Of a stretch of DNA of 27,368 nt, positions 4,176-21,462 are shown piece after piece (position 1 is the stretch's first letter; each line of letters starts with the position of its first letter). The position numbers and the translations under genes were made by a program. Below the pieces are notes generated by a model. That model saw only the letters and a program-made list of their open reading frames with translations, searched no databases and was not told the DNA's origin. The DNA is from a virus. The stretch spans positions 1 through 27,368 of IMG/VR virus record IMGVR_UViG_3300042894_008599; one strand, given 5' to 3'.

Positions 4176-7100
4176 TCAGTTGGGTCCTTCGATGTTTTTC
4201 AGCACCTTAACCAGATCGCGGACGATGTGGGCGGCACTGCCGGCGGCTGCTGCGTTGCCAGAAACGACAGCGCCCAGGGTGAGCACCCCTTCGAGGTCTT
4301 GCATCACCTCGTCAAAGTCACGTTCGCCGCGGAGAATATCGTCGAGATGGGCCGTGGCTTTGAAGCCATTGCCGATGCCATCAAGCAGGCTGCCGCTGCT
4401 TTTATATTCACCCGCCGCTCCCCAGATTCCCTTGCTGATTGCATCGCCAAGCAATGGGATGCCCTGGAACGGGCTGGTTAATGAAGCCAGCGCCAGGCGT
4501 TTTGGGTCCCAGTTGCGCTCGTCGAACCATTCCTTGTCATCATCGTCGCGGAGATCGCTCCAGATTGATCGCAGTAGAGTTGGAAGCACGCCACCCATCG
4601 CCCAGACTAGGGCGATCGGGGTGATCTTTTGGGCTGCGGTCTTGCCTTTGGAGGCGGCCAGCGAGGCGTAGATGATTTTCTGCCTGGCGTCGGATGCGAA
4701 GTTCCACATCAGCTTGGCCGCGGGATTGGTCACTGAGTTTTCGTAGTAGGATCGCGCACCCATGCGGGTCGGTTGTGCAACGCGGTCGGTGCTGCGCGCA
4801 GCGGCATCTTGGGCGTAGCGCTCGGCGGAAGCCCCAGAAAGCAGCAGGTCGGTTTCAGCGAGTTTGAGGTGGTAGTCGTAGAGGATCGCGTAGGTGCCCG
4901 CGGTGAAGAGTGCGTCGGCACCATTGATCAGTTTGCCGACCTTTTGCATGGCGAACTTCAGCTTCGACGGATTGCGATTGTTGAGCCCTTCCATCGCCTG
5001 GCGGACGATCGGTGGTTGTTCACCCAGGCGGCGCTGGATGTAGTCGCTAGCCATCGCCTTGCGCCATCCGAGGTCGCCCATCATCAGGCGGGTGAAGCGG
5101 GTGAGGTAGGCACCGCCAGGCATTTCGAGCGATGCCGCGGCGAGCTGCGTGCTTTGGATCATCAGCACCGATGCCCGTCCTACCAACGCGAGCGATGACA
5201 GGCGACCCGTGGCTTCACGGATCATTCGGTTTAGGAATAGGTTCGTTGATTTGTCGCGGATGCCGCCCTGGGCAAACAGGTCAATCCAGTTGCGCAGCAT
5301 GTTGACGGATTCTTCCCCGCTGGATGCTTTGATCGAATCCCCGACCTCGCGGTTATTGAGCAGCGACATCGCTTCGGTGGCGAGTGGTGCATAAGCCATC
5401 CAGTGTTCCATCTGGCGAGAGTGGCCGAGGAAGACTTGCAGTGCATCGTCGAGCCTTGGCTGAGCGATGGCAGATTGCGAGCGGGTGCGCAGGCTACCAG
5501 GAGTCATGCTCGTGCCTTGGGCAACAGCGCCGGTTTCCGCATCGATCAACTGCCCGCCTGGTGCGTTGAGCGGATCGACCGTGATCGGTGCATAGTTTTC
5601 ATTCTTCGGCAGGTTGATGCCGTAGAGGTCACGGAAGATCGGGTTAAGCCGCTGCCATTCGCCGGCGTAGCGATCCATGATGAAGAGTCGGATTGCCAGT
5701 GCCTCGGGACTGAGCTTGGATTCGATCTCCTGGATGTCTTGCTCGCGGTAGTGCCACTTGCCGACAGGGTTGCCATCGTCATCAAGGTGGCCGGTCATGT
5801 GGCGTTTGCCATCGGCCTGACGCCACATCAGCGTGGCGGTGATGGCTTCGAGCTGCGAGAAAGTGCTCTTGCGGTTTTTCCAGTCGAGGATGGAAATCCC
5901 CTGTGGATCGGCCAGCGCTTTGCGGAGTTTTTCCGCTTTGAATGAATCGCCGGCCAGGCGTGCCAACAAGTCATCGATGTCGCCACCCAGTTTTTCCATG
6001 GCGTCCTCCTTGGCATTGGAAGCACGGCGCTCCCAGTCGGCGAGATAGTTGGCGATGTCAGAATTTTCACCGAAGACCGTGTGAACGAGTGCCTCGAAGG
6101 ATTGCAGCGAGTGACCGAGTTTTTTGATCCAACCGGTGAGTTTGAGTTCCTTGTCTTTCTGGATGCGCACCTCTTCACGAGTGCCGTCCTTGCCGGTCGC
6201 CTGGATCAGAGAATCACGCTGACCCTGGCGGCGTTCGCTCTTGGCGCGCTGCTTGGCCTTGAATTCGGCATAGCCATTTTCAAACAAGGTAGTGGCCTCG
6301 GCAACCGCGGCGGCGCGCGCAGCGGCATCGAGATGGTGCCAGTTGCCGGCTAAACGGATCATCTGGGCAAGCTGGAGGAAGTGCGCCTCCTCATCGGGAG
6401 ATAGCTTGCCGTCGAGATTGGCGGCCTTGCCCTCGTATTTCACCGCCTCGGCTTCGGCATCGTCGCCATCCAGCGCCATCGCCCGTTCCATTTCGGTAAA
6501 CAGGGAATGGATGTCAGCCGTAATTTTTCCGCGTGGCTTCTCACCGGCGGCGGCCTTATTCGGTCTGGAGCGTTTGAGCAGCGCCTCCATCTCGTCGTCA
6601 AAGCGCTCACGGAGATAACTCTCCACGACCTTGTCGATTTTATTGAGTCGCTCGTTGAGGAATTGCAGGCGCTTCTCGTCAGTGCCGATCTTGGCAAGCT
6701 GGGTGTAGCCACCGATCTTGCCGCGCAGTTCGGTGGGCAGCGCCATCATCATCGCATCGAGCATGGCGAGCGAGCGCAGCAGTTGATTCTTGGGCGAGTA
6801 GTCGGAGGCCTCCTTGGCCATACGTTCTTTCATCCATTGCTTGGCCTCGTCTTTGGCGACCTTGCGGGCAGTCGCCACGTCGGCGCGGGCGGCCTTCATG
6901 TATTCCTTCATCTTGGCAACCGAGTTCGATTCGCGTTCGAGCGCCTGCCACATTGCGTCAGCAGTCGGCTCCTTGATCAGTCCGTTGTCGAAGAGTTCCT
7001 GGGCTGCCTGGTCAGGTGCCAGGGTGCCACCGAAGACGCTGCGAGAGATACCATCGGCACCATCGTAGTCGCCTTGTTTCTTTGGATCGAAGAACGTCTC

Positions 7101-10100
7101 GCCGCGGGCGATTGCCTGGCTCTGACTCATCAGGCGGCCGCGCAGCGGACTGTCGGGGTTGCCCAGGTATTCGTGAACCGGTTGCGACTTCAGTTTGGCC
7201 AAGTCGGCATTGTCGAGAATCCCATTATTCTTGGCGTGGGCCTCGTCCTCCAGTTCAGCGCGGCGGGTCGCTTCACGGAAGGCAGCCTCCTTGCGGATGC
7301 TGGCGGTCTTCCGCGGGTCTTCGATCATGCTCCGCTTGTAACCCTTGCCAAAGGCAATGCCGAGCTCATCGCGGTCGCGGCGCAGCTTCGCCAAGTTATC
7401 GAGCATCCGCTGGAAGATCGCGCGGCGAACCTCGGGATTGCGGTTTCTTGCCGTCGCGTTGAGCGACAAGCCATCAACCATCGAAACGGGGGCTAGGGAG
7501 AAGGAGCTATCATTGACTTCTGGCAAAGGCGAAGCTCCTGGATTGACTCTCCCTGTGACTAGATCCGTGACTCGGATTTGGCCGTTTTTATCCTTGAGGA
7601 AATTATCTTTGTTTAGATCCGAGACAAAATACTCCTCACTGTTTACCTCAATTCTGGAAATTAATCCTTGGCTCGGGACGATGTTGAAAGGCAAACGCAG
7701 AGCTTCGTATTCCGCATCGGTGATTGGAGTGCCATATTCCTGGACCAAGTAATGAGCCCCATCGCTTTCAATCGCCTGTGTCGGCATCCCACCAAGGGCA
7801 TTGATTACCTCAGCCTTGCTTCTTACGTCTTCCAGATCCGTACTGCGGATCAATCTGCCGTCGGGATCGTAGTGCCAGATTCCCTTGGCACGGATAGACT
7901 TGAGAACAAGATTCTCGCCGAAGGAGATGACATCGCTTTCAGTGCCACGTCCAATTGTTCGCTCGCTTCCTTCTGCCTTTGCTCGGGCGATTTCGCCTCG
8001 AATTCCCGACGGGCTTCCTCCCGCGCCTTGTCCAAGGCTGCTTTGTGGGAAGGTGGAACGGGAAATGTCACGGCGTCTTTCATCGGTGTGATTGCTGTCA
8101 TAAAGATTTGATGGTGCATTGCCAAGTGAAAACGCAGTTCCTGAATCTTCGGCGGTGGTCGATTCTCCGAAATAGCCGAATTCGGCCAGATCATCCATGG
8201 CCCAGCGAACCTCTTGCGCCTTCACCTCAGAAACCCACACCTTGGTGTTTTGGTCTGGATCGATGCCCATGGCGTGCGTGCGTGCGTATTCCTTGGAGAG
8301 CGTCACCCAGTCGCCCTGGTTCATCTCGGCCTTGGGGCCGGCTCGGAAAATCTTGAGAAGTCCCTCAGGGTTGTTCCGCACCTTTTTCAGTTGGGCCATC
8401 GTCTCGCGAACAATCTTTGACCCCATCCCCGTGTACCATTCGGGGTGATCGTAAACGTCTGCTGGCATGAGTTCGCCTTCGGCCAGGTCGTGCGCGCGAG
8501 GGCCTTCCTCCGACGGACGATGGTTGATTCCATAGTCGGGGGAGAGAGAAAAGGCGGAAGATCCGTTCTCTTGCACCCGTTCACCCACAATGTCAGATTC
8601 CAATCCGTAAAAAGTAGGAGTCCTTGAGAAAAGCCCCATTTCCATCCCGCTGGCATACCAATTCCGACCTTTTTCATCTACGTAATCCACCACGATGTCC
8701 GTCAACAGGTTGGCGCGGTTCATGCCGTGGAAGTTGTTGATCAGCCGCTCCGCTTCCAATTTGGACGCGGCCTTCGCATGGAGCATCAGCCACGCACCGC
8801 CTTGGCTGAGTGTGTATTCCGAAATTTGCTCCCGAGTGAGTTGAAGAATATTAATCGCCGAGCCGGTAAAGGTCGCCGCAATCGCTCCCCTGGCGGTGGT
8901 GATAAACCCGATAATGTGATCAGGATTCCCCCGGTCGGATTCAATGTCGCGGGAAATTGAAGCGATTCGATCCGCGCTCAATGCTTGCTGCCCAATGTCA
9001 TTCACCCCGTCGATCAGCCTGCTTGGCCATGCGTAAGGATTTACTTCCGCGCCAGCTTCACGCAGCGCGGACGGCGAAATGGCGTGACCGTTGACCACAC
9101 CTACATCGTCAATCGTGGCAAATGACGCATGATTGATCACCACATGATTCACCATTTGAATTCCGTGCTTTTTCATTTCCGCCGAGTGCATCAACGTCAC
9201 GCGGAGATCAGCCGACGAAGGGCTTGGGTCGCCACTCGGGTGGTTGTGCATCAGGAAATAACTGTCCGCCTTGGCGGCTTGCAGGAATGCCAAGTGATCC
9301 GCCAGTCCGTCTGCATTGTTCTTTCCGTCCGCAAAAATCGCGGCCGAAGTCGGGACGCGGGCAGTGATGGCCATGGCGTCAAGAATCTGATACCCAGCAC
9401 CGCCTTTGTGGCGCTTGGTCCGGCGTTTCGCCGCCAGCAGGTAAAAAGTCTCAAACCGTGGATTCCGCAGCGCCTGCGCTTTCACCGCCAACTCTTCCGG
9501 CGATCCAATGGTTTCACCGATAAACCTTACTTGCAGATCCGTTTCGAGGTCGCGCGCAAGTCGCTGCCGTATGATGGATGCGTTTCCGATTCGTCCGCGT
9601 AAATCCCCTTCTTGATCCAGTTCTTTTTCGCCGGAAGCTTTACCAGAATCCCCTTCGAGGATACTTTGCGCGAAGTCGAGTAAGAGTTGACGTTTGTCTT
9701 CATAAGAAGCCTTGGGTTGCTCCAAACGTAGCGCGTCTTCACCGATCCTGTCAATAAGCGAGTCGCGCAGGTCGGTCGGGCTGCCTTTGAATAATGACCC
9801 CATCGAAAACGGTTCGTTGTCGGTGGGGACAAAGTCATTGAGCGCCTTCAGCTCAGCCTGCACCGCTGCGTCGTGTTCGCCCTGGTAGTCGCGGCCGGTG
9901 AGCTTATCGAGAAACGCCTGGTGATCGGCCTCGTTGAGCTTGCCTTCGCGGATGGCCTTTTTCATCGCCAGGGCGCGGGCGCTGGCAAGACCCATCACGC
10001 CGCGCAGGGATTCGAGGAAGGCGCGGAATTTCTGGGTGGCGCCAGGTGCGAGTTTTGCCAGGGCGATCATGTTGCGGGAGATGATGCCATTGGCGAGCGG

Positions 10101-12755
10101 GATCGACTTGTCGCCCACGTTGCGCTTGCGGGTGCGCAGTAGCTCAGCCTCGATGATTTTCTGGATGGCCTCATCGAGCATCTTCGGGGTGACATCGGCG
10201 TCGGCGATTCCTTCGTTGAGCAGAGCAAGACGTTGTCCCGCCTGATTTCCGCGGCGCAGCACCTGGGCATTCATTACATTGTCCACGGCACGGACGAAGG
10301 CCAGCTCGTCAGCGTGGGTGATTTCGCCGGCAGCGCGCAGTTGCCGCAGCATGCCGTGACCGGTTTCATGGGTGAGCGTAAGAACCGATGATCCAGCAAA
10401 GAGCCGGTTGGTAAAGCTGCGCACGGTGCCGCGCAGGGTTTCTTTATTCTGCCCCAGGGCGATGCGGGTGATGTTGCCGGTGCCTCCATTGAGAACCTCC
10501 TCGTCGGCGACCTGTTGTTGGAACTGGTCAATGTGGCGTGGGTCTTCCGCGGCAGCCACGGCCTCGGTGTAGAGCGTTCCTAGCTCGAAGCTGTTCTGGG
10601 AATTCGGATCAAGCGCTTGGAGGTTTTCGCCCGCCTCCAACATCGAGGCGATGTAGGACATCTTCTCCGCGCGCTGTTCGCTGAGAGCAGCGCTGTGATT
10701 GCTTGCCAAACGGAATGCCGTAGCCTTGTCGGGTGCTTGGCCGATCTCTTGTCCGCTTTCACCATCGAGCACCTGGTAGCCATCCGCCGACTGGACGATG
10801 CGCGGCATCCATCCGCTTTGTTGGGCGCGCTCCATGGCAGCCTTGCGCTCCACCGACTGCTGCATGAGATCCTCGACGGCACCCTTGGCACTGTCGCTGT
10901 TGGCGTCGGAACGTTCGGCTGCGGCCGCGAGCGCGGCATTGGCCGAAGCAACGCCCTTGCCAACCGCCTCGCGGAAAACCGGAACATCATCGGGATGCAT
11001 CCCGCCGGCCAGCAGTTGTGTGTCGCTGGCTTCTGAGAATGCTTTAATTCTTGAATCCTTGAATGCGCTGACACCTGCACCAAAGATTGCCAGTGGTAGC
11101 ATCGTCACCATCATCTCCGCGTTCTTGGTCCAAAATCCGTCGAGAACCCCACCCTTGCCCGTCCACTGAACATCGGGAATGTCTTGTTCAAGAGCATGGC
11201 CCAGGTCTTGGATGACGGCGGGTACTAAGTCTTGGAGATTTTCCAAAGTCCCTTCTTCGATCGTACCTGCACCAGTTCTTACGGCAAACCGCAGCGCGCG
11301 CGACTTCACCCCATCCATGACCGAGGTTAGCGCCTTTTCAAATATCGGCAGTCTACCGGCAAAGGCTTCGATCTGGAGTTTCTCCATCAACACCTGTGGC
11401 ACCGCGGCAAAAGGTGCCAGTTCACCGGCGTACTTGGCGGCATCCTTGTACGACATCCCCTTGTCTTGAAAATCCTGACGATAGTCCTGATAGATGGATT
11501 CCTGCGAGCTAAGGTAAAAGGCAGCCATTCCGACATAGGGAATCGCCGCACTGGCAGATGTTACAATGGCACCAGGCGCACCATAGGCTCCCTTCTCAAA
11601 AATTCGAGCCAAGCTTCCATCCTTGGCCAGGTACTTCATCGGGTCATAGCTGGCTTGTTGAATGCGAGCCACGCTTGCCTGGAAGTCGATCCGCTCTCGA
11701 GTTGTCGCAGAGTCTTTCAAGTTTTGCTCATGGCGCTGCATTCCTGCTTCCATCTGTGACGGATAAAGATCGGGCATGCCGCCAGTACGCGAATCGCGCG
11801 AGGCTTCCCCAAGGACGCCCGCATTGACCTCCACCAGGTTCATCATGTTAGTCCCAAAGCCTTTGATGTCCCGCCCGCTCTGCTTCACAATGTTTGACCA
11901 AAATGTAGCCTGCTCTGCGTCTGGCAGTGATCCCGACCTGACCTTGAGCGCGGCTAAAAATGTATCGCGCTCTCTTTCATCCAGCGAAAAATACGCATCT
12001 CCCGCAGCCTTGGCGTAGTCACCTTTGCTGGTGAAAGCATTCCAGACCGAGTCCAGTTCGGGGCGGAATGCATCCACCTGGTCTTTGACCTCAGACTGAA
12101 TCTCGTGCCACGCTGCGTAGTAGTCAGCTTCTTTGGCAGGATCGTAGCCAGGTTGGTTTTTTGCACTGTCCTTCCAGGTGCTGAACCCGCGCTTCGGATC
12201 GTTATCAGCCAGGAAGCTGTCTTTGGATGCAGCCCTGGATAATTGAGAACCCATCTCGCGCGAGTCCTTGCGGTCTTGGGAATACTTCACCACCTCGGCG
12301 TGGAACGATTCCTCGCTATCCGCGCCGCGGTCATTGAAGTAGAGATGAGAGGCGCGAACGCGTGCGAGGTGCCGGCCAAATGGCGACGGGTCAGCGGGAG
12401 CATCGTCACTGGTGTAGTGGAGGAACGCGTCGTTGGTGAGCTGGAGTTGTGCCGCGGAATCGACACCATCCTTGGCGTAGTACTTCGCAGGATCGAGTGC
12501 AGCCTGGTCCACTTGGCTCATGCCATTGATGCGCCACTCTTTTAACGTCTGCTGGTATTCCTCATTCTGCTTTTGCCGTTGTTGCTCTGTTTGAATCCAC
12601 GGATTCTCCCCAAATCCCTGGCTAACCAAGTCGGGAGATGCCGCGGCATCGGGTAACATAGCTGCCTCGGTCAGCGGTTTAACGTCAGTGGCTAGATTCT
12701 CCAGTGGGTCTTGAGTTGAGGAATCGGCAAAATTAGAAATCAGGGTAATAGCCAT
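4176..12755 (-). CDS. Giant polyvalent internal virion protein: metallopeptidase, RadC/JAB, ART-like and kinase-like regions plus gp16-like C-terminus
   Basis: 2859 residues, about twice T7 gp16 (1318 aa), in the same genomic place. Visible order: an N-terminal helical region with hydrophobic segments near 388-415 and 543-562; a zinc metallopeptidase motif HETGH (His796, Glu797, His800); a RadC/JAB domain about 1080-1220 with HNHPSGDPSPSSAD, matching the JAMM spacing (His1170, His1172, Ser1180, Asp1183); an ADP-ribosyltransferase-like region 1435-1530 (FRAGP Arg1471, GDWVTLS with Ser1487, EFGYFG with Glu1525); a kinase-like region 1600-1740 (GRGTESD, Lys1619, SDLNKDNF with Asp1713 and Asn1718, TDL Asp1731); a charged helical region 1770-2300; and a conserved C-terminus with hydrophobic stretches near 2515-2540 and 2705-2730. 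This fits the 'polyvalent protein' class, probably ejected into the host with the DNA. Activities are predicted from motifs, not shown. Confidence 0.88.
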   Translation of the reverse strand: MAITLISNFADSSTQDPLENLATDVKPLTEAAMLPDAAASPDLVSQGFGENPWIQTEQQRQKQNEEYQQTLKEWRINGMSQVDQAALDPAKYYAKDGVDSAAQLQLTNDAFLHYTSDDAPADPSPFGRHLARVRASHLYFNDRGADSEESFHAEVVKYSQDRKDSREMGSQLSRAASKDSFLADNDPKRGFSTWKDSAKNQPGYDPAKEADYYAAWHEIQSEVKDQVDAFRPELDSVWNAFTSKGDYAKAAGDAYFSLDERERDTFLAALKVRSGSLPDAEQATFWSNIVKQSGRDIKGFGTNMMNLVEVNAGVLGEASRDSRTGGMPDLYPSQMEAGMQRHEQNLKDSATTRERIDFQASVARIQQASYDPMKYLAKDGSLARIFEKGAYGAPGAIVTSASAAIPYVGMAAFYLSSQESIYQDYRQDFQDKGMSYKDAAKYAGELAPFAAVPQVLMEKLQIEAFAGRLPIFEKALTSVMDGVKSRALRFAVRTGAGTIEEGTLENLQDLVPAVIQDLGHALEQDIPDVQWTGKGGVLDGFWTKNAEMMVTMLPLAIFGAGVSAFKDSRIKAFSEASDTQLLAGGMHPDDVPVFREAVGKGVASANAALAAAAERSDANSDSAKGAVEDLMQQSVERKAAMERAQQSGWMPRIVQSADGYQVLDGESGQEIGQAPDKATAFRLASNHSAALSEQRAEKMSYIASMLEAGENLQALDPNSQNSFELGTLYTEAVAAAEDPRHIDQFQQQVADEEVLNGGTGNITRIALGQNKETLRGTVRSFTNRLFAGSSVLTLTHETGHGMLRQLRAAGEITHADELAFVRAVDNVMNAQVLRRGNQAGQRLALLNEGIADADVTPKMLDEAIQKIIEAELLRTRKRNVGDKSIPLANGIISRNMIALAKLAPGATQKFRAFLESLRGVMGLASARALAMKKAIREGKLNEADHQAFLDKLTGRDYQGEHDAAVQAELKALNDFVPTDNEPFSMGSLFKGSPTDLRDSLIDRIGEDALRLEQPKASYEDKRQLLLDFAQSILEGDSGKASGEKELDQEGDLRGRIGNASIIRQRLARDLETDLQVRFIGETIGSPEELAVKAQALRNPRFETFYLLAAKRRTKRHKGGAGYQILDAMAITARVPTSAAIFADGKNNADGLADHLAFLQAAKADSYFLMHNHPSGDPSPSSADLRVTLMHSAEMKKHGIQMVNHVVINHASFATIDDVGVVNGHAISPSALREAGAEVNPYAWPSRLIDGVNDIGQQALSADRIASISRDIESDRGNPDHIIGFITTARGAIAATFTGSAINILQLTREQISEYTLSQGGAWLMLHAKAASKLEAERLINNFHGMNRANLLTDIVVDYVDEKGRNWYASGMEMGLFSRTPTFYGLESDIVGERVQENGSSAFSLSPDYGINHRPSEEGPRAHDLAEGELMPADVYDHPEWYTGMGSKIVRETMAQLKKVRNNPEGLLKIFRAGPKAEMNQGDWVTLSKEYARTHAMGIDPDQNTKVWVSEVKAQEVRWAMDDLAEFGYFGESTTAEDSGTAFSLGNAPSNLYDSNHTDERRRDISRSTFPQSSLGQGAGGSPSGIRGEIARAKAEGSERTIGRGTESDVISFGENLVLKSIRAKGIWHYDPDGRLIRSTDLEDVRSKAEVINALGGMPTQAIESDGAHYLVQEYGTPITDAEYEALRLPFNIVPSQGLISRIEVNSEEYFVSDLNKDNFLKDKNGQIRVTDLVTGRVNPGASPLPEVNDSSFSLAPVSMVDGLSLNATARNRNPEVRRAIFQRMLDNLAKLRRDRDELGIAFGKGYKRSMIEDPRKTASIRKEAAFREATRRAELEDEAHAKNNGILDNADLAKLKSQPVHEYLGNPDSPLRGRLMSQSQAIARGETFFDPKKQGDYDGADGISRSVFGGTLAPDQAAQELFDNGLIKEPTADAMWQALERESNSVAKMKEYMKAARADVATARKVAKDEAKQWMKERMAKEASDYSPKNQLLRSLAMLDAMMMALPTELRGKIGGYTQLAKIGTDEKRLQFLNERLNKIDKVVESYLRERFDDEMEALLKRSRPNKAAAGEKPRGKITADIHSLFTEMERAMALDGDDAEAEAVKYEGKAANLDGKLSPDEEAHFLQLAQMIRLAGNWHHLDAAARAAAVAEATTLFENGYAEFKAKQRAKSERRQGQRDSLIQATGKDGTREEVRIQKDKELKLTGWIKKLGHSLQSFEALVHTVFGENSDIANYLADWERRASNAKEDAMEKLGGDIDDLLARLAGDSFKAEKLRKALADPQGISILDWKNRKSTFSQLEAITATLMWRQADGKRHMTGHLDDDGNPVGKWHYREQDIQEIESKLSPEALAIRLFIMDRYAGEWQRLNPIFRDLYGINLPKNENYAPITVDPLNAPGGQLIDAETGAVAQGTSMTPGSLRTRSQSAIAQPRLDDALQVFLGHSRQMEHWMAYAPLATEAMSLLNNREVGDSIKASSGEESVNMLRNWIDLFAQGGIRDKSTNLFLNRMIREATGRLSSLALVGRASVLMIQSTQLAAASLEMPGGAYLTRFTRLMMGDLGWRKAMASDYIQRRLGEQPPIVRQAMEGLNNRNPSKLKFAMQKVGKLINGADALFTAGTYAILYDYHLKLAETDLLLSGASAERYAQDAAARSTDRVAQPTRMGARSYYENSVTNPAAKLMWNFASDARQKIIYASLAASKGKTAAQKITPIALVWAMGGVLPTLLRSIWSDLRDDDDKEWFDERNWDPKRLALASLTSPFQGIPLLGDAISKGIWGAAGEYKSSGSLLDGIGNGFKATAHLDDILRGERDFDEVMQDLEGVLTLGAVVSGNAAAAGSAAHIVRDLVKVLKNIEGPN

Positions 12756-20499: not shown

Positions 20500-21462
20500 T
20501 TAGCGACTGCCGCGCTTTGCTTGGCTCGCATCGAGCTCGTAAAGCGCATGAATCCGGCTGCTGGCTTCGGAGTCATTGCGCCACTTTGGATTTGCCTTCA
20601 TGATCTCGACTGCCTGTTGACGTGGACTGTGACTGCCCGTATTAACTTCATTTCCGACACCTGGCAGCGGTGCCTCACGCAGCGCCCGCCGTGCCTCATC
20701 GATCACGCGCACCACCTTGGGATGGGATAGCGCTGCTTGCATCGCGGGATCAGATAATTCATCAGCGGCAAATCGCGATTGCACAAATGCACGGTTGGCT
20801 TCCAGTCGCGAATCGTAGTTATCGCCCCATTCCTTTTGAAATGTCTGTTCGGATGCCTGGGCAAACTGAGCAACCTTCACATTGAATGCTTCAAATGCTC
20901 CATCACGCTGGCCACCCAGGCTATCGATGTGCTTTTGAATGAGCTCGTGGGCAGCCGCGGTGGGAATGTGATGTTTGTGGAAAATCTCTGCGTAAGGTTT
21001 CATCGCAGAGTCATCCCACTGCACACCGTCTGGCAGCTTTTCCGGCTTGAAGGCATAGCCATCTAGATTCTCTGGAACACCTGCATCGCGGCGGAATGCC
21101 GAAACGTCATCCTCCGCGGCACCTGCCTTTGGATAGCTGATGCCGGTCGACTTCTTGCCGACAAATCCGAGCGTATCATCCATCATCCGCATCAGTGTTG
21201 CCTCATCCTTGGCCGTAGCAGCCTTGGTCGCCAGGCGCTCGAACCCTGCTTCTCGCAGGCTTTCTGTCCATCCCTCGTTGAAGGTGCCTCCCTTCTGGAC
21301 ATGATCGCCAAACCATCCGCTTTTCGCGGGCTCGCTGCTGGTTGTTGCTGCCTGGGCATTGCCTCCCATGAATCCGCCTGGCGACGGAGTAGGAGTGGAC
21401 GTTGGGGTGGAATCTCCGACAGATGCCGGAGCCGATTCGATTGCGCTGGTGGATTCGCTCAT
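20500..21462 (-). CDS. Scaffold / capsid assembly protein
   Basis: 320 residues, acidic and mostly helical. The first 45 residues are Ser/Thr/Pro-rich and probably disordered (ending TPSPGGFMGGNAQ). The middle carries the usual phage scaffold wording: RDAGVPENLDGYAFKPEKLPDGVQWD, then EIFHKHHIPTAAAHELIQKH and FAQASEQTFQKEWGDNYDSRLEANRAF (read as separate stretches). The basic C-terminus (ELDASQAKRGSR) could contact the capsid protein, as in other scaffolds. It precedes the major capsid gene, and its start overlaps the upstream small gene's stop by four bases. No protease gene is seen, so scaffold loss without cleavage, as in T7, is likely but inferred. Confidence 0.82.
   Translation of the reverse strand: MSESTSAIESAPASVGDSTPTSTPTPSPGGFMGGNAQAATTSSEPAKSGWFGDHVQKGGTFNEGWTESLREAGFERLATKAATAKDEATLMRMMDDTLGFVGKKSTGISYPKAGAAEDDVSAFRRDAGVPENLDGYAFKPEKLPDGVQWDDSAMKPYAEIFHKHHIPTAAAHELIQKHIDSLGGQRDGAFEAFNVKVAQFAQASEQTFQKEWGDNYDSRLEANRAFVQSRFAADELSDPAMQAALSHPKVVRVIDEARRALREAPLPGVGNEVNTGSHSPRQQAVEIMKANPKWRNDSEASSRIHALYELDASQAKRGSR

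Follow-up and report, generated by a model that had tools for sequence, protein, structure and literature searches.

The polyproteins of RNA viruses carry protease-specific sequences at their junctions, with one consensus that recurs at every junction and shifts with lineage. In phage T4, a short tag on internal head proteins, the capsid-targeting sequence, serves in targeting and is also processed; it is N-terminal and single. We know of no effector cassettes or tags in gp16, the ejection protein of phage T7.

Cleavage at a shared motif has been measured in tailed phages. According to the accessible part of one account (PMC10052503), the prohead protease of phage SPN3US, gp245, recognizes the motif AXE and cuts 14 sites in nine substrates, which comprise head proteins and ejected proteins. 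Iyer et al. 2017 (PMC5512222) described polyvalent proteins and, in the portion of the paper available, proposed that their parts are released proteolytically by zincins.

Here, we describe a giant, probably injected protein of a podophage-like virus and its relatives. At the borders between modules stands a five-residue motif, x-[FY]-S-[ILVM]-x, which changes in concert within each phage lineage. In the sources as far as their text was accessible, a literature search for the motif, or for the processing of such proteins, found no description, which does not prove that none has been published; a search of the accessible text of PMC5576092 likewise gave no match.

Results

The window, by which we mean the whole stretch of DNA analyzed (27,368 nucleotides, the 27-kb virus record IMGVR_UViG_3300042894_008599), carries structural genes of the T7/BPP-1-like podophage type on the minus strand. 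Terminase and portal genes are followed by a gene in the scaffold position, the capsid, two tube proteins, and small internal proteins, and then by a 700-amino-acid lysozyme-bearing protein, the 2,859-amino-acid giant, and a tail-fiber-like protein, which from portal to tail fiber is the gene order around T7 gp16. Annotated cultured phages of a wider class (Bordetella BPP-1, Pseudomonas AF, Vibrio 1.021, and others), reached via the giant of vir555, also have the gene at the giant's position preceded by proteins that some records label "internal virion protein" or "structural lysozyme." This shared order is evidence, though not proof, for the giant being an ejection protein at the gp16 position, and its delivery with the virion is likewise probable from gene order only. 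At positions 1-723 the window holds a lysin-like ORF with a subthreshold CHAP/DUF2272 match. The features of the giant are as follows.

4176..12755, minus strand: ORF of the giant, 2,859 amino acids; it occupies the place of the T7 gp16 ejection gene, and the surrounding order matches that of BPP-1-like podophages
10536..12755, minus strand: N-terminal "vehicle," residues 1-740 (approximate boundary), tag-poor and conserved in relatives
11982..11990, minus strand: FSL at F256 (DAYFSLDER), within the N-terminal vehicle, at no border
9831..10535, minus strand: zincin-like domain, residues 741-975 (approximate boundary)
10356..10370, minus strand: HETGH, residues 796-800, intact in the window and lost in 37/55 family proteins
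9798..9812, minus strand: tag 1, PFSMG, residues 982-986
8556..9794, minus strand: cassette 1, residues 988-1400, with a RadC/JAB core (PF04002 at 1161-1212, E 5.9e-10)
8541..8555, minus strand: tag 2, AFSLS, residues 1401-1405
8136..8540, minus strand: cassette 2, residues 1406-1540, PHROG 2579 "ParB C-terminal domain" (match 1406-1536)
8121..8135, minus strand: tag 3, AFSLG, residues 1541-1545
7506..8120, minus strand: cassette 3, residues 1546-1750, kinase-like by eye only, without a significant match
7491..7505, minus strand: tag 4, SFSLA, residues 1751-1755, at the start of the C-terminal vehicle
4179..7490, minus strand: C-terminal "vehicle," residues 1756-2859, predicted to be almost all-helical

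In the giant, effector cassettes that can be exchanged lie between a conserved N-terminal and a conserved C-terminal vehicle. Effectors of the polyvalent type are present in the window (RadC) and among relatives, where a domain scan covering 49 of 55 cargo regions detected ART-PolyVal in 22/49 and RadC in 5/49, along with LPD3, LPD23, LPD37, PBECR5, MuF_C, and Kinase-PolyVal. Among the 25 of 32 families listed, PADLOC run on the cargo returned only models of the methyltransferase type. An earlier, sequence-only reading of this stretch had labeled four of the modules. Its RadC/JAB label stands (PF04002), and its "metallopeptidase" is backed by HETGH together with a fold match to zincins of middling strength (Z about 7). 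The PF04002 and PHROG 2579 matches both lie between tags. Its "ART-like" module, which PHROG labels a ParB C-terminal domain, and its "kinase-like" module are without a confirming family match in the window. For the latter, cassette 3, phmmer matched kinases only at E 0.6-0.8, and an NCBIfam scan of the window modules returned only RadC, below the cut-off. For the C-terminal vehicle, comparison with PDB sequences gave chance-level matches only, Foldseek against PDB folds gave no significant match (the question of a likeness to gp16 included), and hhalign with the vir555 giant was not significant. PHROG 9880 was matched by one of eight C-vehicle sequences (5.6e-4), and the fold is common to other giant phage proteins in BFVD.

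The same reading had reported four near-identical motifs in low-complexity linkers exactly between modules. All four are present, as P-F983-SMG, A-F1402-SLS, A-F1542-SLG, and S-F1752-SLA (minus strand, ORF 4176-12755), and AlphaFold2 agrees with a linker setting, the chain around tags 1 and 4 being predicted disordered with pLDDT under 50. A fifth FS[LM], at F256, had been overlooked; since it lies inside the conserved N-terminal part, four of the five occurrences, rather than all, are at borders, and the F256 copy is probably a chance occurrence. The Ser codons of the four tags all differ (TCG, TCT, TCA, and TCC). Count statistics from the window protein alone, with five FS[LM] seen against 0.79 expected by composition and FSL at rank 11 among tripeptides by Poisson, are too weak to carry a claim, and we did not rely on them.

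Relatives were gathered with a protein search and an alignment search, made with the C-terminal part, of viral contigs, and with one search of bacterial genomes. These yielded 89 loci encoding a relative of the giant, a number that includes repeat retrievals of a single contig; together with the window, they were reduced to 65 after dropping sequences >90% identical across 70% of their length, and to 55 at a length of at least 2,000 amino acids. In addition, tblastn of the whole giant against a phage collection returned 137 records, the 60 matches listed falling always in the cassette-2 region; an ART-PolyVal search in bacterial genomes found 3/297 genomes; and a second ART scan, from the giant of a Rhodobacteraceae phage (L171), found 2 loci. 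Split ORFs were considered as a sign of natural cleavage and set aside, as the giant of L054 is interrupted by nothing more than an in-frame stop and is uninformative.

The earlier reading had named a lack of enrichment at domain borders in homologues as one of two results that together would count against it. In relatives the tag is strongly enriched there. Across the 55 proteins, the cargo region (from residue 880 up to the C-terminal core) holds 215 [FY]S[LIVM] where 47.5 are expected, so that about one-fifth of these matches are expected by chance, and the motif falls below expectation in both the N vehicle (first 880 residues; 20 versus 32.5) and the C vehicle (C-terminal core; 21 versus 33.1). 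Neighboring virion proteins have no excess, whether the lysozyme-bearing protein (18 versus 19.9 expected), the gp14-like protein (6 versus 9.0), tube B (23 versus 34.0), or the tail fiber (17 versus 15.3).

Tags coincide with the limits of similarity between relatives. After collapsing, 387 of 3,041 BLAST segment ends lay within 10 amino acids of a tag, compared with a mean of 120 (maximum 151) for random positions and 134 (maximum 167) for Ser-anchored positions, each over 300 placements. Segment starts cluster at -4 to 0 of the aromatic residue and drop at +1, while ends cluster at +2 to +4, although part of this sharpness arises because the tags themselves are alike. Against the window, one relative (L002) aligned at residues 13-986 with 43% identity, at 1398-1544 with 72%, and at 1713-2854 with 48%; one cassette exactly between tags 2 and 3, also flanked by two tags in the relative, is therefore conserved far more closely than the regions on either side. 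In most of the 54 tagged proteins the last tag is near the start of the C-terminal vehicle, with more than 300 amino acids between tag and core in four, and the low-complexity linker sits before the tag, not after. Tags are kept in L019, L069, and L059 though there is hardly any cargo, L059 having FSTI at both ends. This enrichment and border position in relatives uphold the tag observation despite the weak count in the window.

Some giants depart from the common layout. In six proteins (L019, L026, L034, L079, L080, and L010), a second tag follows the first after a short spacer of about 16-31 amino acids, often with ART-PolyVal next. In L021, which has no FS[LIVM] tag, the space between the vehicle ends (residues about 690-990) is taken by a different module containing HELWEH. 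Two giants of more than 5,000 amino acids (L151 and L121), cut by the end of their stretch, combine ART-PolyVal with vehicles of an unrelated kind and are nearly devoid of FS tags.

Within a protein, the tags share a dialect. We compared 369 nonduplicate within-protein pairs from 209 tags in 54 proteins with 1,000 permutations, after removing pairs with similar flanks and leaving out 6 of the 215 cargo matches, which were internal to the ART domain or read FSLFQAK. Residue agreement exceeded the permuted value at -1 (0.33 versus 0.15), 0 (0.73 versus 0.58), +2 (0.48 versus 0.36), and +3 (0.47 versus 0.20), with 0/1000 permutations in each case. Weaker rises were seen at -2 (1/1000), +5 (12/1000), and -5 (27/1000), and other positions tested, out to 20 residues, were flat. 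Examples are FS[IMV]I in L079, YS[VI]R in L043, FS[IL]G in L026, NYSI[GA] in L041 and its relatives, and the FSTI borders of L059. Such permutations leave some relatedness, against which we checked with one representative per cluster below 50% C-vehicle identity; the dialect was repeated (28 proteins, 130 tags; 0.47 versus 0.18 at +3), as it was in 29 further proteins reached through the ART-PolyVal cassette. Control motifs [FY]A[LIVM], [FY]G[LIVM], and [LIVM]S[LIVM] showed no dialect, and four other controls had too few pairs.

The cassette of ART-PolyVal, an ADP-ribosyltransferase, offers a natural transplant. In 47 of 51 cases in this vehicle family it has [FY]S[ILV] ahead of it at fixed spacing, and in giants with other vehicles the tag is often absent. 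For 41 such cassettes in proteins with two or more further tags, the tag of the cassette agreed with those of its own protein at -1, 0, and +3 (0/2000 permutations each); at +2 the agreement was not significant (196/2000). The same ART cassette, then, wears the dialect of its carrier protein. A Gly-Pro at 8 and 7 residues before the ART domain start, upstream of the tag, is also kept in 47/51 cassettes of this family. At the codon level, agreement among tags is near expectation at -1, 0, +2, and +3 and above expectation for Ser (131 of 369 pairs versus 84.3). With codons near expectation outside Ser, and differing in the window, the constraint is mainly on the protein.

Taken together, density, border position, dialect, and the ART cassette transplant point to a selected short motif. 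Dialects within proteins favor a single reader, which both cleavage sites and docking sites would be expected to have, and the tag is thus probably read by one shared factor.

Discussion

Our preferred reading, which we hold at about even probability, is that the tags are processing sites of a polyprotein-like ejection protein in the gp16 position, with cleavage predicted to occur in trans. One lineage-specific protease, of phage or host and distinct from the giant's own zinc site and from RadC, would bind residues -1 to +3 and cut at the tag, in the flexible linker. Such cuts would part the two vehicle halves and release every effector, inside the capsid or after ejection. A motif at borders, flexible linkers, concerted change with lineage, and retention with hardly any cargo together look like polyprotein junction sites; in relatives, a recognition-type motif is found at module junctions and shifts in concert across them with lineage. 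The cargo also fits, being typical polyvalent effectors. Against this, adjacent tags are in some proteins only about 16-31 amino acids apart, which is odd for freeing effectors, and at the sequence level a docking motif would look no different. Furthermore, the other virion proteins lack tag enrichment, so that any protease would serve the giant only, and a Pfam scan of ten other window proteins, from a partial genome, found no peptidase beyond the subthreshold CHAP/DUF2272 lysin. A reader protease, if there is one, would most likely act in trans and on the giant. The gene in the scaffold position (window 20500-21462) has a PHROG 458 "protease" match (E 9.8e-9) and no Pfam match; its product is probably the scaffold and is also a candidate tag reader.

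Alternatively, the tags could be docking or address signals, each border tag binding the phage core, portal, scaffold, or a chaperone so as to load or thread the chain with no cut, in a manner comparable to the T4 capsid-targeting sequence. We consider this rather unlikely, but it is the most serious of the rivals. It accounts equally for border position, disorder, and dialect, and it sits well with a low-complexity linker preceding the tag and with a Pfam scan that found no protease. Yet tags are kept between vehicle ends that enclose hardly any cargo, and one per border exceeds the needs of targeting, for which one per protein would suffice.

A third explanation, raised both by the sequence-only reading and, for zincin-like domains, by Iyer et al. 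2017, is autoproteolysis by the giant's own zincin (HETGH) or by RadC/JAMM. The window keeps HETGH, and tag 1 directly follows that domain. As a general mechanism, however, it fails for the family. HExxH is kept in 18/55 proteins and lost in 37/55, where variants such as EEINH, EEKTEG, and similar stand in its place, and tags are as numerous (3.83 versus 3.78 per protein) and as dense in both groups. Since the zinc site is lost without loss of tags, and since RadC/JAMM was detected in only 5/49 cargo regions, neither can be the general reader. Tag 1 was also not docked into the zincin-like domain in the AlphaFold2 model. We judge autoproteolysis very improbable, a verdict that applies to the family more firmly than to the window itself. 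The zincin-like domain is itself retained in the 37 of 55 relatives concerned (for example, L035, L034, and L079), mostly with the first zinc-binding His changed to Glu, and a metallopeptidase domain that appears dead from its residues is widespread among relatives.

Still slightly less probable is that the tags are recombination scars or neutral linkers, a microhomology that aids cassette swaps and is homogenized at the DNA level. Tags do coincide with exchange borders, and the excess agreement of Ser codons is what this explanation would predict. But codon agreement is near expectation at -1, 0, +2, and +3, concerted change is limited to about five residues, and the other tripeptides tested had none. 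We rejected homogenization at the DNA level, as codons differ save for the Ser excess. Least probable of all is a structural role within each module, with the tag forming, for instance, the opening strand of the fold that comes after it. The tag does come directly before the ART-PolyVal domain start in 47/51 cases, but that domain often lacks it in giants whose vehicle is different, unrelated folds also follow the tag, and tags 1 and 4 are predicted disordered.

We also advance a broader proposal, tentatively and with somewhat less than even confidence. Tailed double-stranded DNA phages may eject modular effector polyproteins whose junction code is lineage-specific and read by a trans protease, such that mobile cassettes must adopt the local code for release, with other groups using other codes, e.g., LFQ. 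The giant of Rhodobacteraceae phage LS06-2018-MD07 (L171), which has a different vehicle, contains six [LM]FQ against 0.59 expected, a pattern seen after the fact. These lie at residues 1082, 1094, 1345, 1682, 1901, and 2394, one directly before an ART domain and several apparently at module borders. As a lead only, this suggests that other phage groups may use other border codes; a simple test on 12 BPP-1-like cultured giants found no clear repeated tag code.

The idea that injected multidomain phage proteins are cut into separate effectors has been a loose one; the tags give it the form of a sequence code, which can be tested site by site. Tags offer a way to locate effector borders in unannotated giant phage proteins, and they point to a reader. 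The built-in zincin, although the obvious candidate, cannot be the general answer.

Compared with known systems, the tags resemble the junction consensus of RNA-virus polyproteins, but here the setting is a tailed double-stranded DNA phage and cleavage at the tags is a prediction. The T4 capsid-targeting sequence is single and N-terminal, whereas the window tags are repeated at inner borders. With internal virion proteins of the T7 gp16 type (described in the accessible part of PMC8954989) and of the BPP-1 Bbp10 type, the giant shares its gene order, the structural lysozyme and internal virion proteins encoded before it, and a helical body. Polyvalent proteins combine ART-PolyVal, RadC, kinase, LPD, MuF_C, and zincin-like modules on one phage chain, as here; the available text of PMC5512222 mentions no linker tag or lineage dialect (no occurrence of "linker" or "FSL"), and in our family the zinc site is lost in most relatives. 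For the SPN3US prohead protease, the accessible part of PMC10052503 describes a different motif and cuts that for the most part trim off N-terminal propeptides; effector modules are not separated by them. Its protease is known, and with a short motif read by one factor it is the nearest measured precedent that we have read.
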